This document shows, piece after piece, positions 30,343-58,064 of a DNA stretch of 64,000 nucleotides; position 1 is the first letter of the stretch, and each line of letters begins with the position of its first letter. The stretch spans positions 248,001 to 312,000 of the forward strand of contig NZ_JBGUAY010000001.1 of NCBI RefSeq assembly GCF_041821025.1, given 5' to 3'. The stretch comes from Egicoccus sp. AB-alg6-2 (GTDB taxonomy: Bacteria > Actinomycetota > Nitriliruptoria > Nitriliruptorales > Nitriliruptoraceae). The notes under the pieces were generated by a model that did no database searches, was not told where the DNA came from, and saw only the letters and a program-made list of their open reading frames with translations. The position numbers and the translations under genes are program-made.

Positions 30343-30434
30343 GGAGGGTTCGCCTAGTCCGGCCTATGGCGCACGGCTGGAATCCGTGTTGGGAGTCACA
30401 TCCCTCGGGGGTTCGAATCCCCCACCCTCCGCCA
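30343..30434 (+). tRNA. tRNA-Ser (GGA)
   Basis: A class II tRNA with acceptor GGAGGGT/ACCCTCC, discriminator G and an encoded CCA (30432-30434). The anticodon stem CACGG/CCGTG surrounds CTGGAAT, anticodon GGA; the long variable arm and TTCGAAT T loop are present. It reads UCC and UCU. Confidence 0.95.
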
Positions 30435-30503: not shown

Positions 30504-30751
30504 CCCCACGTTCGGTTCCCGGCACGAAAGCCGGCGGCACCCGGCCCGCGCGAACGGCCGCGACGCCCCACGTTCGGTTCCCGACGCGAAAGGCGGCGGC
30601 ACCCGGCCCGCGCGAACGGCCGCGACGCCCCGCGTTCGGTGCCCGGTACGAAACTGGGCGGTATGCCCACCGGCGCGGCCGTCTTGCCGCCCCACGTTCG
30701 GCGTCCGGCACGAAAGCCGGCGGCACCTGGCCGCACCCGACCGCAAGGGGG
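30504..30751. repeat. four tandem 62-bp repeats with conserved hairpin
   Basis: Units begin at 30504, 30566, 30628 and 30690, an exact 62-bp period. Each opens with CCCC(A/G)CGTTCGG and has a central hairpin: CCGGC-ACGAAA-GCCGG in units 1 and 4, and CCCGGT...ACTGGG in unit 3, where both arms changed yet pairing is kept with one G-T. Units 1 and 2 differ at 3 of 62 positions; units 3 and 4 diverge in the second half. The period is not a multiple of 3, arguing against coding. This array fills most of the 461-bp gap 30435-30895. Its role is unknown. Confidence 0.85.
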
Positions 30752-30895: not shown

Positions 30896-31435
30896 ATGCG
30901 AAGCAGGTGCATGCACGTCCTCATGGTCGCCGCGATGCTGCTCACGATGCTGGCCGGCCCGGCGGCCGCCGACTCGGCGGTCCCCGCCGGCGGTGACTAC
31001 GACATCAAGATCGTCGGCAACGCCCGGCTGTACCCGTGGAACGGCGTGATCGACGGCACCACGGTCGCCTTGAACGTCCGCGTACGGTGCCCGGCCGGCG
31101 AGACCGCCGTCGTGCCCTTCGCCGGCATGCCCGATGCCTTTGGCGGGCAGTTCCCTGCGCCGTATCTGCCCGGCCACACGAGTCCGGCGGTGTACGGCGG
31201 CCTGGTGCAGTGCACCGGCGGCTGGGTCAAGGCGACGACGGTGGCGCGCAGCGTCGCCCGCCTGCAGAACCCGGCGACCCACCCGTTCGAGTACTTCTCG
31301 CACGGTCGCGTCGCGTTCGTGGTCGAGATCGCCGGGTGGCCCGACCCGCTGGCGACGCACAGCAAGACACTGCAGGTCGTGGTGCCGGGTCGGCGGGGGG
31401 CGGGCGGTACCCAACCGGGTGTGCGGGCGGCGTAG
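30896..31435 (+). CDS. secreted hypothetical protein
   Basis: A protein of 179 residues from ATG 30896, set by GGAG 7 bases upstream. A Sec signal peptide covers about residues 1-26, with a hydrophobic core (VLMVAAMLLTMLAGP) and predicted cleavage after AAA. The mature part is beta-rich with one Cys pair (VRCPAG and VQCTGG), suggesting a small disulfide-bonded beta-sandwich. No family recognised. It stands alone just after the 62-bp repeat array. Confidence 0.65.
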   Translation: MRSRCMHVLMVAAMLLTMLAGPAAADSAVPAGGDYDIKIVGNARLYPWNGVIDGTTVALNVRVRCPAGETAVVPFAGMPDAFGGQFPAPYLPGHTSPAVYGGLVQCTGGWVKATTVARSVARLQNPATHPFEYFSHGRVAFVVEIAGWPDPLATHSKTLQVVVPGRRGAGGTQPGVRAA

Positions 31436-45700: not shown

Positions 45701-47845
45701 GTGGCCTACGTGTCGCTGTACCGCAAGTACCGGCCACAGACGTTCACCGACGTGGTCGGCCAGCAGCACGTCATCCAGACGCTCGTCCACGCCATCGAGG
45801 AGGACCGGCTCCATCACGCCTACCTGTTCACGGGGCCGCGTGGGACCGGTAAGACCTCCACCGCTCGCCTGCTCGCCAAGGCGATCAACTGCGAGCAGGG
45901 GCCGACCCCGACCCCCTGCGGGGTCTGCGAGCACTGCACCTCCATCGCCGAGGGCAGTTCGGTCGACGTGATCGAGCTCGACATGGCCTCCCACGGCGGG
46001 GTCGACGACGCCCGCGAACTGCGTGACCGCGCCCTGTATGCCCCCGCACGCGCGCGCCGCAAGGTCTACATCCTCGACGAGGTCCACATGGCCTCGACGG
46101 CGGCGTTCAACGCGCTGCTCAAACTGATCGAGGAGCCGCCCTCACACGTGCTGTTCGCGATGGCGACGACCGATCCGCAGAAGGTGCTGCCGACCATCCT
46201 CTCGCGGGTGCAGCGCCTCGACCTGCGGCGCGTCGCGGCCGCGGACGTGGCCGGCAACGTCCAGCGCATCTGCGACGCCGAGGGTTACACGATCGACGCC
46301 GGCGCCGTCGAGGCGATCGTGCGTGCCGGCGACGGCTCACTCCGCGACACCCAGTCCGTGCTCGAGCAGGTGCTCGCGTTCGCCGGGACGACCGTGACCG
46401 CGGAAGCGGTGACCCAGGTGCTCGGGCACACGCCGGCCGACCGGGTCTTCGAGACGGTCGAGATGGTCGCCGGTCGCGACCTGGCCGGGCTGCTGGGCAT
46501 GGTCCAGGGGCTGTTGGACGAGGGCCACGACCTGCGCCGGTTCACGCTCGACCTGGTGCAGCACCTGCGCGACCTGCTCGTCCTGCAGGTCGCACCCGAC
46601 CGGCCCGACCTCGTCGACGCGACCGACGACCGGCGTCGCCAGCTGCAGGCCCAGACCACCGCGATGCCCCGCGAATCGCTCCTGCGTGCCGTCGACCTGT
46701 TGGCCGCGACCGTGGTCGAGCAGCGGCAGGGATCGCCACGGCTGCCCCTGGAGCTGACGCTGGCCAAGCTGGCCGTCCCCGGCGCCGACGGTGACGTCGC
46801 GGGCCTCGCCGACCGGCTGGCCCGCCTCGAGTCGCGGGCGGTCACGGCCGCGCCGGCTGCCTCGGCGCCGGCTGCCTCGGCGCTGGCTGCCTCGGCGGCG
46901 GCTGACTCGGCGGCGGCGGACTCGGCGCCGGCTGCTTCCGCGCCGGCTGCCCCCTCGCCGGTCACGGCCGGGCCGGACGCCGCCCCGTCACCCCGACCGC
47001 GGGCGGGGCGACCCCCCGAACCGCAGCAGCCGGGTCCCGCCGACGAACCGGCACCGTCGCCCTCCGGCCGTCTTGCGCCGACGCCCTCCGACGTGCAGCC
47101 TGAGGCCGCCGCCCCGGCGGCCGAGACGCCGTTGCAGGCACGAGCACGTGCCCGCGGTCAGGGACCCCCGGCCACATCGGGACCGCCCGGGGCGACCGCG
47201 GCCACCGAGGCGGCTGCCTCCGAGCCGGCAGCCGAGCACCCGCGGCCGGCCACACCGGCGGGCACGACCGCAGAACCGGCCGCGCCCGGGCCGACGACCG
47301 CCCAGCCGACGACCGCCCCACCCACCACCGGGGCGGCGGCAGGTGCCGAGGCGGCGGCCGACGGGGACAGCGAGCTCGAGTTGCTGCGGCGCAATTGGGA
47401 CGGGGTGCTGGAACTGGTCAAGAACCGCAGCCGTCGCAGCCACGCCGTGTTCCTCCCGGCCACCGTCACGAGTGTGTCGCGCGGCATCGTCATCCTGCGC
47501 TATGCGCAGCGCTACGCCTCCTTCCACGCCCAGAACGCGAGCAAGGGCGAGTTCGCCGACGTGCTCAAGGAGGCCATCGAACGCGCCTGCGGCCTGCGGC
47601 TGCGCGTCGAGGTCGTCATCGAGGGGGACGACGACCGCCGCCGACCCGTGCCGCCGTCCGTGACCCCCGACGATGCCCGCACCCCCGTGCTCGACGACGG
47701 CCCCAGCGCCGCCGAGGAGGCCGACGTGCGCGAGGCCGAGCAGTCGGCGCCGGCACACGTCGAGGCGGCGGCGACCGACCAGCTGCTGGCGCAGGAGCTC
47801 GGCGCCGAACTGCTCGAGGAACAGCCGGCCCCCGGCGTCGAGTGA
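45701..47845 (+). CDS. dnaX: DNA polymerase III subunit gamma/tau
   Basis: A protein of 714 residues from GTG 45701; GTG codons at 45692 and 45671 are in-frame alternatives. The AAA+ clamp-loader module covers about 1-370: YRKYRPQTFTDVVGQ, Walker A TGPRGTGKTSTAR, a zinc Cys cluster CEQGPTPTPCGVCEHC, Walker B YILDEVHMAS, and sensor ATTDPQKVLPTILSR. A long Ala/Pro/Thr-rich linker (about 385-560) contains seven 15-bp repeats; a tau-like domain (about 560-650) follows. It loads the beta clamp and joins the two replicative polymerases. Confidence 0.95.
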   Translation: MAYVSLYRKYRPQTFTDVVGQQHVIQTLVHAIEEDRLHHAYLFTGPRGTGKTSTARLLAKAINCEQGPTPTPCGVCEHCTSIAEGSSVDVIELDMASHGGVDDARELRDRALYAPARARRKVYILDEVHMASTAAFNALLKLIEEPPSHVLFAMATTDPQKVLPTILSRVQRLDLRRVAAADVAGNVQRICDAEGYTIDAGAVEAIVRAGDGSLRDTQSVLEQVLAFAGTTVTAEAVTQVLGHTPADRVFETVEMVAGRDLAGLLGMVQGLLDEGHDLRRFTLDLVQHLRDLLVLQVAPDRPDLVDATDDRRRQLQAQTTAMPRESLLRAVDLLAATVVEQRQGSPRLPLELTLAKLAVPGADGDVAGLADRLARLESRAVTAAPAASAPAASALAASAAADSAAADSAPAASAPAAPSPVTAGPDAAPSPRPRAGRPPEPQQPGPADEPAPSPSGRLAPTPSDVQPEAAAPAAETPLQARARARGQGPPATSGPPGATAATEAAASEPAAEHPRPATPAGTTAEPAAPGPTTAQPTTAPPTTGAAAGAEAAADGDSELELLRRNWDGVLELVKNRSRRSHAVFLPATVTSVSRGIVILRYAQRYASFHAQNASKGEFADVLKEAIERACGLRLRVEVVIEGDDDRRRPVPPSVTPDDARTPVLDDGPSAAEEADVREAEQSAPAHVEAAATDQLLAQELGAELLEEQPAPGVE
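46856..46960 (+). repeat. seven 15-bp repeats inside dnaX
   Basis: Seven in-frame copies of a 15-bp unit (gctgcctcggcgccg and variants) encode an A-(S/D)-(A)-P/A-A linker in DnaX. They are coding low complexity, prone to slippage, and probably set linker length. Confidence 0.75.
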
Positions 47846-55262: not shown

Positions 55263-58064
55263 TCAGTCCTGTCCGGGTGGTCCGGACCCACCGGGTCCAC
55301 GACCGCCGGCCCCGCCGGCCTGGTCGTCGTCGTCCCCCTCACCGCCGCCCTCCTCGGGCGGAGGCTCGGGCTCGGGTTCTGGCTCCGGTTCGGGTTCTGG
55401 CTCCGGTTCCGGCTCGGGCTCGATGCCGATGGTGATCACCACGACGGCGCCCTCGCCCGGCAGCAGGTTGGCGCCCGGGCCCGGGCTGGTCCCCACGACC
55501 CGTCCGACGGCGTCGGGATCCCCGGTCGGCGCCTCCTGCACGGCGACCTCGTAGCCGGCCGAGACCAGGACGTCGATCGCCTCGTCGAGCGTCATGCCCC
55601 GCACGTCGGGGACCACCGGCGCCTCGCCGGTGCCGTTGGAGACCTCGAGCACGATGCTGCTGCCGAGCGGATGGGTCGTGCCGGCCGGCGGGTCCTGGTT
55701 GACGAACGTGCCGGCTGAGCGGTAGTCGTCGACCTCGACCACCCGCAGCCGGAATCCGGCCTCCTGGGCGATCTGCTCGGCCCGGCTGATCGAGCCCGCC
55801 GACAGCAGGTCGGGCACGCTGCCGGTCGGCAGCGGACCGGGCTCGGGGAAGTTCTCGGGTTCGAACCGCTCCGCGGCCTGGCGCATGTACGAGGACCAGA
55901 TCGTCGCGGGCAGGCTGCCGCCGGTGACCCGGGCGTAGTACTCGCCGGCGATGGTCACCTCGGTCAGGAACTTGGTCTGGCCCGGGCACTGGCCGCTCTC
56001 GCCCGGTCGGAACCACGGCTCGTCCCCACAGACGGTGGCAGCCGCCTCGGAGTCGACGAAGTACCGCGTGTCGGCCGGATAGCCGATCCAGGTCGCGGTC
56101 GCCAGCTGCCGGATGAACCCGACGAACCAGGCGTCACGGTGCTGGTCGGTCGTGCCGGTCTTGCCACGCGTTGGCCAGGTCTCGAGGTTCGCGCGCGGGG
56201 CGGTGCCGCCGGGACCGACCGGGCCGGCCATGATGTCGACGGTGCGGTCGGCCACCTCGGTGTCGATGACCTGGGCGCAGTCGGCGCGGTGCTCCCAGAT
56301 GACCTCGCCGGCCGCGTTCTCGATCCGACTGATCGGGAACGGGGCGCAGTACACGCCACGGTTGGCCAGGGTGGCGTACGCCGACGCCATCTCGAGCGGC
56401 ATCAGGTCGGCGGCGCCCAGGGAGAGCGAGCAGTCGGCGCGCACGTGGGGCGAGGTGATGCCGAGCTTGCGGGCCATCTCGACCGCCTTCTCGGGGCCGA
56501 TCTCGGCGATGAGCTTGGCGTGGTAGACGTTGTTGGAACGCCGCACCGCCTCGTACATGTCCATGATCTCGCCGGCGCCGCTCTCGGCGAAGTTGCCGAC
56601 CTCCCACGGCTCACCGCGGTCGAGGCAGCCCTCGATCTCGCTCGGACCGGCGCCGTCCATCTCCAGCGTCGGGGGCACACCGTCCTCGAGCGCGGCGGCG
56701 ATGATCAGCGGCTTGAACGACGAGCCGGGCTGGCGACCCGAAGCGCCGACGCCCGGGACGACCGTATTGACCTTGGTCTTGTGGCAGAGCAGCTCCCCCT
56801 CGTCGGTCTCGTCGGCCCACTCGCCGTCCTCGGCACACGAACCCCACGGATGGGGGCCCTGCGCCAAGGCAACGATGGCGCCCGTCTCGGGGTCGATGGA
56901 GGCGATCGCACCCCGGGGCTCACGGGCGAGTTGCGCCGGTGACTCGTCGGGGACGCTGAGGTGGTCGGTCAGCGCCTGCTGGGCGAGCGCCTGCAGCTCG
57001 GGATCGAGGGTGGTGTGCACCCGCAGACCGGACTGGTAGACGCGGGCGCGGCGTTCCTCGACGGTGGCGCCCATGGCCTCGAGCGCGCCACGTTGCGTGC
57101 CGAGACCGTTGGCGACGTCCTCGTTGATCAGCAACCGGGTGACCCAGTCGACCCACAGCGGCTCGTTGGGCGCCGGCGGCTCGGTGATCTGCAGGTTGAG
57201 GTCCCGGGCCGCGGCCACCTCGGCCTGCTCGGCGGAGATGAACCCGTGGTGACGCATCTGGTTGAGGACGATGTTGCGCCGCGTCAGCGCGTTCTCGGGG
57301 CTGACGATGGGGTTGTTGCGCTCCGGACTGCGGATGATGCCCGCGAGCATCGCGGCCTGGTCGAGCGTGAGTTCGTCGGCGGGCTTGGAGAAGTACCGCT
57401 CCGCGGCCGTGCCGATGCCGTAGACGCCGCTGCCGAAGTAGACCCGGTTGAGGTAGCGCTCGAGGATCTCGTCCTTGCTGAGCTGTCGTTCCAGCTGCGT
57501 CGCGTACACCGCTTCCTGGATCTTGCGGCCCAGGGTCTGCTCCGGGGTGAGGAAGGTCTGCTTGACGTACTGCTGGGTGATCGTGGACGCCCCGCCCTGG
57601 ATGCTGCCAGCGCGGAAGTTGGTCAGGGCCGCGCGCACGATGGCGAGGTGGTTGACGCCCTCGTGGTTGTAGAAGTCGGCGTCCTCGGTGGCCAGCACCG
57701 CGTTCTTCACGCCCTCGGGGATGTCGGCCAGCGGCACCGGGACCCGGTTCTCCTCGAAGGTCAGCTCGGCGAGCTCGGTGCCGTCCGCGGCGTACAGATA
57801 GGAGTTCTGCGGCGGCGTGGACGCCTCGCCCAACGGGGGGACGTCGAGCACCTCCGCCCGGACGGAGCTGAGCACGTCGTCGGTCGCCATCGCCGCCGGC
57901 AGGAACAGGGCGCCGAGCAGCAGTCCGGTGGCGCCGATGACGGCCAGCAGCAGCATGATCCGGGCCAGGAAGGCGCTGGTGTTCTGGGCCGCCGTGGCAC
58001 CGCGGGAACGCCCGGAGGCCGGCTGGCTCCGAGCCGGGCGCTTCGAGGCCGCCGACGCGCCCAT
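55263..58064 (-). CDS. class A penicillin-binding protein with two PASTA domains (PonA2-like)
   Basis: A protein of 933 residues from ATG 58064 (AGAGG upstream). Cytoplasmic tail, one membrane helix (about 33-58), a GT51 glycosyltransferase domain (EDADFYNHEGVN near residue 125, GGASTITQQYVKQ), a transpeptidase with SSFK (GSSFKPLIIAA), SNN (RRSNNVYHAKL) and KTGT (RGKTGTTDQHRDAWF), then two PASTA repeats (about 740-890) and a Glu-Pro repeat tail. It polymerises and cross-links peptidoglycan. Promoter box TACCCT at 58124-58129. Neighbours match mycobacterial ponA2. Confidence 0.94.
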   Translation of the reverse strand: MGASAASKRPARSQPASGRSRGATAAQNTSAFLARIMLLLAVIGATGLLLGALFLPAAMATDDVLSSVRAEVLDVPPLGEASTPPQNSYLYAADGTELAELTFEENRVPVPLADIPEGVKNAVLATEDADFYNHEGVNHLAIVRAALTNFRAGSIQGGASTITQQYVKQTFLTPEQTLGRKIQEAVYATQLERQLSKDEILERYLNRVYFGSGVYGIGTAAERYFSKPADELTLDQAAMLAGIIRSPERNNPIVSPENALTRRNIVLNQMRHHGFISAEQAEVAAARDLNLQITEPPAPNEPLWVDWVTRLLINEDVANGLGTQRGALEAMGATVEERRARVYQSGLRVHTTLDPELQALAQQALTDHLSVPDESPAQLAREPRGAIASIDPETGAIVALAQGPHPWGSCAEDGEWADETDEGELLCHKTKVNTVVPGVGASGRQPGSSFKPLIIAAALEDGVPPTLEMDGAGPSEIEGCLDRGEPWEVGNFAESGAGEIMDMYEAVRRSNNVYHAKLIAEIGPEKAVEMARKLGITSPHVRADCSLSLGAADLMPLEMASAYATLANRGVYCAPFPISRIENAAGEVIWEHRADCAQVIDTEVADRTVDIMAGPVGPGGTAPRANLETWPTRGKTGTTDQHRDAWFVGFIRQLATATWIGYPADTRYFVDSEAAATVCGDEPWFRPGESGQCPGQTKFLTEVTIAGEYYARVTGGSLPATIWSSYMRQAAERFEPENFPEPGPLPTGSVPDLLSAGSISRAEQIAQEAGFRLRVVEVDDYRSAGTFVNQDPPAGTTHPLGSSIVLEVSNGTGEAPVVPDVRGMTLDEAIDVLVSAGYEVAVQEAPTGDPDAVGRVVGTSPGPGANLLPGEGAVVVITIGIEPEPEPEPEPEPEPEPEPEPPPEEGGGEGDDDDQAGGAGGRGPGGSGPPGQD

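Follow-up and report, generated by a model that had tools for sequence, protein, structure and literature searches.

Palindrome arrays phased to the DNA helix are candidate sites of an AbiEi/Vsr-like protein family in Egicoccus and its relatives

A tandem repeat in Egicoccus sp. AB-alg6-2 belongs to a family of short palindrome arrays that are dispersed through the genome at a fixed pitch, and over many species such arrays, with cores private to each, accompany genes of a single protein family. These proteins pair an AbiEi-type winged helix with a Vsr-like nuclease domain. In our judgement the arrays are probably the cognate DNA sites of this family, those of Egicoccus being the predicted sites of the protein encoded at C6:44127-45053. 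Array pitches fall into two classes, and the residues of the nuclease motif are conserved. Below, this genome, in which a WhiB gene (PF02467) indicates an actinomycetotal origin, is called G000 and other G numbers denote compared genomes; the window is the whole 64,000-nucleotide stretch that was analysed.

Phased dyad arrays in the Egicoccus genome

Four tandem units lie at 30504-30751 of the window at an exact 62-bp pitch, and all four can be aligned without gaps. TRF called the repeat at 30504-30732 (period 62, 3.7 copies) with a score of 274, the highest among 31 arrays in the window. The fourfold 62-bp repeat of the original prediction was thereby borne out, and its shared unit start, CCCC(A/G)CGTTCGG, and its placement between a tRNA and a secreted-protein gene proved equally correct. 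The tRNA-Ser(GGA) upstream is detected by ARAGORN, with a score below the Rfam tRNA gathering threshold, and a Pfam scan of the secreted-looking ORF downstream returned no family match. Elsewhere in the window, in-frame short tandem repeats of 15 bp and 18 bp are found within coding sequence at 46850-46951, in a dnaX-like gene, and at 55363-55422.

Features at the window array, and arrays flanking homologues of the partner gene in other genomes
Feature	Coordinates	Strand	Core (position)	Pitch or remark
tRNA-Ser(GGA)	30343-30434			upstream of array
Array unit 1	30504-30565	+	TTCGGTTCCCGGCACGAA (30511-30528)	
Array unit 2	30566-30627	+	TTCGGTTCCCGACGCGAA (30573-30590)	
Array unit 3	30628-30689	+	TTCGGTGCCCGGTACGAA (30635-30652)	spacer unlike units 1-2
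Array unit 4	30690-30751	+	TTCGGCGTCCGGCACGAA (30697-30714)	last dyad, array end
Secreted-looking ORF	30911-31435			downstream of array
G001 homologue flanks			TTGCCGC..GCGGCAA	61 bp
G003 homologue flanks			GGTTTCCGTC..GACGGAAACC	62-63 bp
G022 homologue flanks			AGAAGTCGGC..GCCGACTTCT	61 bp
G004 homologues, two copies				arrays at 61 and 62 bp
G011 homologue flanks				62-63 bp
G006, G019, G024, G013, G044, G042 and G050 homologues				72 bp

A whole-genome DNA search of G000 revealed related arrays at other loci, and a covariance model built from 49 units and searched against the same genome gave a total of 72 units, grouped between genes into 19 arrays of 2-6 units each. The unit is therefore found at 18 places besides the one in the window, where failure to find it elsewhere had been named as grounds for abandoning the original prediction. 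Solitary units gave hits at background level only. Among 53 pitches measured, 51 were 61-63 bp (62 bp in 35, 61 bp in 8 and 63 bp in 8), the other two being 69 and 72 bp. Contig C6 (422 kb) carries six of the 19 arrays, above its share. Arrays often start a few bases from a stop codon, and the genes on either side may have any relative orientation.

The conserved part of the unit is a dyad of ~30 bp, CCCACTTTCGGCTCC/CGGCACGAAAGTGGG, whose symmetry resides in an outer dyad, TTCGnnnCSSGnnnCGAA, bordered by CCCAC/GTGGG. When arrays were weighted equally, information was confined to this dyad; the other 32 bp were at random level and fixed in length. Indeed, the core is common to arrays at different loci and the spacers often are not. 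Tandem duplication is evident from the many units that nearly match others in their own array.

An AbiEi/Vsr-like gene flanked by arrays in many species

The G000 gene at C6:44127-45053 (308 aa) lies between two arrays of opposite orientation, one upstream and one at its 3′ end, and its product is the sole homologue of the family in this genome; the genes next to it code, by Pfam, for a PucR-type regulator and an acyltransferase. The 19 arrays appear to be the sites of one DNA-binding, nuclease-like protein. Its N-terminal part is an AbiEi-type winged helix and its C-terminal part a Vsr/DUF559-like (EDxHD-type) nuclease domain. Among 18 homologues scanned, the PADLOC AbiEi model matched all, Pfam AbiEi_4 six, REase_MTES_1575 four and DUF559 four. 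Scores above the DUF559 cut-off were confined to G005, L150 and L151. MTES_1575 has been described as a Vsr-fold REase (PMC3710099). The top PDB profile match, a remote one, is to I-Bth0305I, an EDxHD homing endonuclease, in its catalytic domain (3r3p, E 0.0057); its family is reported to form dimers on a target almost 60 bp long (PMC3943268). Residues E201, D228, E239, G242, H246, D255 and R258, among others, are invariant in the 18 homologues; the acidic and histidine positions in this set are catalytic-type residues of a Vsr/DUF559/EDxHD nuclease.

Of 61 genomes searched at the protein level, 24 contain homologues, and most members of the family are flanked by palindrome arrays, mostly on both sides. 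Our initial flank statistic was too permissive, with 27% of random sites passing, and was replaced by a z-scored search together with exact pitches. Scored against shuffles, this de novo search yielded 37 significant flanks, with pitches of 61-63 bp in 18 and 71-72 bp in nine; locus-by-locus checks bore out the pitches, often on both sides of the gene. The core is private to each homologue, the exceptions being near-identical proteins (G024, G013 and G044) and the pair G002 and G003, whose cores are alike. The 72-bp pitch of L147 comes from a count by eye only, and at the flanks of L132 and L133, which lie within the family, no array pitch could be verified. The more distant homologues L148 and L170-L187 have no array nearby. 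Among 396 genomes sampled more widely from Actinomycetota, 49 contain homologues (profile search, E 1e-20), and the distant ones inspected there are mostly without arrays; the array association holds for a subset of the wider protein family. The G003 homologue (L140, G003:C12:107771-108679) carries an in-frame TAG and was split in gene calling, while its flanking arrays persist; it is possibly a recent pseudogene.

Two further genomes bear on this association. The complete 5.56-Mb chromosome of G010 encodes two homologues and contains two separate array families: core A, TTCCTGGGCCTGAGCCCAGGAA, borders one paralogue and turns up at four other places, and core B, GAACnCGCGnATnCGCGnGTTC, borders the second paralogue and turns up at nine. 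Each of the 23 pitches measured there is exactly 62 bp, and a reversed-pattern control found none. Cores are similar across these arrays and many spacers are unrelated, which argues that the arrays were not simply copied whole. As a control we also scanned 400 kb, without bias, of G005, a genome lacking a close homologue at the cut-off used. The scan returned one clear phased array, and this adjoins a gene with both AbiEi_4 and DUF559 above Pfam cut-offs, ~20% identity to the profile and 62-bp arrays on both sides.

At 10.4 bp per turn, 62 bp corresponds to six helical turns and 72 bp to seven. On the protein tree the two pitch classes require three changes, as compared to 5.9 when shuffled, and only six of 500 shuffles were as low. 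G019 (72 bp) clusters with G010 (62 bp), and switches by one turn must therefore have occurred more than once. Pitches of 82 bp at L150 and 41 bp at L151, from one pair each, fit eight and four turns. For comparison, AbiEi itself recognises two inverted repeats of 23 bp, separated by 3 bp, and its family member Rv2827c recognises two tandem pairs of 23-bp inverted repeats in which the inner gap is 13 bp and the outer gap 4 bp, the authors remarking on the extra 10 bp (PMC7319586). By arithmetic from those figures, the Rv2827c pairs have a pitch of 63 bp.

Relatives of Egicoccus have other cores at similar pitch. The G000 core occurs in arrays in none of 40 relatives, including three congeners, and weak model matches in G016, G021 and G028 are single sites outside any array. 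The proposal that hairpin arms might prove to drift at random in relatives is consequently not simply applicable: the G000 unit is absent there, and the arrays that are present have different cores. For example, the tsf-pyrH site has no array in G002 or G003, where the adjoining genes are 85-95% identical, and in G001 it holds two copies of another palindrome, GGTTGCCGCnCATATGCGGCAACC, with a pitch of 61 bp. A pattern search placed the G001 core on six G001 contigs, at a 61-bp pitch on each, and found it in G001 alone among 25 genomes; two of the six dispersed G001 arrays are at loci orthologous to G000 arrays, with different cores. Similarly, an unbiased 400-kb stretch of G003 contains a third core, GGTTTCCGTCG..CGACGGAAACC, at 61-63 bp. 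Next to G001 cores (L083 1480-1600, L084-L085) there is often CCGGCACG or GTGCCGG; both look like G000 half-sites and are possible relics of an older core. In G002 (L106 14970-15090) a 14-bp palindrome, GACGCACGTGCGTC, occurs three times past a PucR-type gene, with spacings of 62 and 38 bp. Among GTDB contigs, a strict pattern for the G000 core had no match, and a relaxed one picked up repeats within coding sequence and, in a Kiritimatiellota genome, a repeat of 63 bp. In that genome, Kiritimatiellaeota bacterium B1221, the 63-bp tandem repeats contain TTTCGGAGCCCGCATCGAA and lie at contig ends (L067 1-159, L070 1-132); the architecture is similar, and the resemblance may be due to chance.

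Candidate role and origin of the arrays

If this protein family does recognise the arrays as its own sites, the winged helix would bind each ~30-bp dyad, and dyads six turns apart, or seven in some lineages, would place the bound proteins on one face of the DNA and able to contact one another. Constraint would then fall on dyad sequence and spacing, leaving the sequence of the spacer free. The arrays flanking the gene probably serve autoregulation in the manner of AbiEi operators, and the dispersed arrays would be additional sites, either of a regulon or as landing sites that the nuclease makes or homogenises, after the fashion of REP/RAYT. The specificity of the protein and the sequence of its site would shift jointly from species to species. 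Binding, cooperativity, cutting and a biological role are in this sense predicted attributes of the protein, and its role is divided about evenly between that of a resident selfish element and that of a regulator. Both are claims on role, and each is compatible with the arrays being cognate sites.

One good possibility, if not quite an even chance, is a selfish element of REP/RAYT-like habit, whose nuclease would cut at or near the arrays and spread or homogenise them by repair without benefit to the cell. A gene placed between its own repeats, with dispersed extragenic copies, is consistent with such an element, as are a C-terminal domain resembling a homing endonuclease, the conserved nuclease-motif residues, the lack of any obvious common function among array-adjacent genes in G000, and the emptiness of the tsf-pyrH site in G002 and G003 despite 85-95% identity of the adjoining genes. 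Against it, arrays that share a core across loci but often not a spacer were not copied whole, and the positional orthology of two of the six dispersed G001 arrays with G000 arrays, with differing cores, also fits it poorly. The same orthologous positions favour a global regulator, which we entertain more tentatively as a still plausible reading; here the arrays would be operators for the gene itself and for a regulon, with the nuclease domain used for dimerisation or conditionally. AbiEi proteins indeed autoregulate via inverted repeats (PMC7319586), one array is upstream of the gene, and phasing to the helix is a usual mark of cooperative binding to operators. Nevertheless, promoters in G000 hold arrays no more often than do gene 3′ sides or convergent gaps, the gene itself also has an array where its 3′ end lies, and the nuclease-motif residues are invariant, all of which speaks against this reading.

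The arrays might instead be bound by some other, unrelated chromosomal protein, with the nuclease-like gene merely tending to sit between them. We consider this unlikely, given that the G010 paralogues each lie inside their own private array family and that the association persists at ~20% protein identity and at a different locus in G005.

Very improbable, too, is the reading put forward in the original prediction, of structured RNA or tandem small RNAs with a conserved, compensated hairpin under selection. Some single units, above all in G001, are long perfect palindromes, a point in its favour. The inner stem CCGGC/GCCGG of the window array, however, is intact in two units, the first and the fourth; unit 2 has lost it (CCGAC/GGCGG), and unit 3 maintains it only via a G-T wobble. 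Paired changes did not exceed those in shuffles: over the 49 units of the genome-wide family, 68.4% of cells were paired as compared to 69.1% in shuffles, and 15 cells were double-changed as compared to 16.2, and in a second array family, that of G010 core B, the count was 299 against 305 +/- 6. Folding of the array region was no better than that of shuffled sequence (z of +0.42 and +0.47 on the two strands), and an Rfam scan over the array gave no match. Moreover, the pitch classes of 61-63 and 72 bp are one DNA helical turn apart, which fits binding to one face of double-stranded DNA and does not fit RNA. The lack of covariation, the confinement of information to ~30 bp and the random spacer of fixed length together support selection on the dyad, as a site in DNA, and on how far apart the dyads lie. 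Of the earlier claim of selection on RNA or DNA structure, therefore, the selection stands and the hairpin does not.

Neutral minisatellites arising by slippage, for which the near-copy units within arrays do attest tandem duplication, are scarcely credible in view of the single pitch in 19 arrays and again in other genomes with unrelated cores, the conservation of cores but not spacers between arrays, the many cases in which spacers unlike all others of the family still measure 61-62 bp, and the association with one protein family.

Relation to known systems

The layout most closely recalls REP sequences and BIMEs with their RAYTs, which likewise are species-specific dispersed extragenic palindromes, often in regularly spaced clusters, and have copies of the repeat on both sides of the cognate gene (PMC2817692). 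Here, too, the gene is within its own repeats and copies are dispersed between genes. The differences are that the units lack the GTAG/CGTC-type tetranucleotide head, both in the 49-unit consensus and in the other cores, and that they form head-to-tail arrays at six or seven turns, in tens rather than hundreds of copies. A Y1_Tnp (PF01797) RAYT gene was found in none of six genomes tested, G000 included, with positive controls detected; the G000 protein, an AbiEi-wHTH joined to a Vsr-like domain, is unrelated, and REP/RAYT proper was ruled out.

With the AbiE type IV toxin-antitoxin systems (AbiEi, Rv2827c) the protein shares its N-terminal domain family and an arrangement of tandem inverted-repeat sites, which are bound in AbiE (PMC7319586) and are candidate sites here. 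It differs in its C-terminal nuclease-like domain and in having 19 dispersed arrays rather than one promoter. No AbiEii (DUF1814) toxin gene is next to the partner gene in G000, and an AbiE toxin-antitoxin pair was ruled out in this genome. I-Bth0305I and related EDxHD/Vsr-like homing endonucleases share remote C-terminal homology and the E/D/H/D residues, whereas the G000 protein is not the product of an intron, carries an AbiEi-type winged helix and has at most putative cleavage and homing activity.

Type I-E CRISPR arrays also have a pitch near 61 bp and partly palindromic repeats. In contrast, the cores of the present arrays vary, spacers are often duplicated, arrays of 2-6 units are dispersed and the partner is not a Cas protein. 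A CRISPR array was ruled out, as the repeats are not near-identical and spacers are shared within arrays. The original prediction had set aside CRISPR, an IS end and a tRNA; no CRISPR, tRNA or Rfam family was found over the array.

Having neither a Y1_Tnp gene nor an adjacent AbiE toxin gene, and being unlike CRISPR, the arrays and their partner likely constitute a separate kind of system, with a layout like that of REP/RAYT and, by analogy, DNA recognition like that of AbiEi. In the open-licence literature we found no description of such arrays and no described role for AbiEi-DUF559-type proteins. There is perhaps an even chance that they represent an undescribed repeat-protein class, in which an AbiEi protein with a Vsr-like nuclease would bind, and perhaps propagate, arrays of palindromes spaced by whole turns, the array sequence following the protein in each species and the spacing moving by single turns.

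AbiEi-DUF559-type proteins, widespread in Actinomycetota, thereby gain specific and testable candidate DNA targets. The replacement of the core between species, with spacing kept in helical steps, offers a natural experiment on the co-evolution of protein and site, and the arrays may be a second, unrelated solution to what REP/RAYT systems do.
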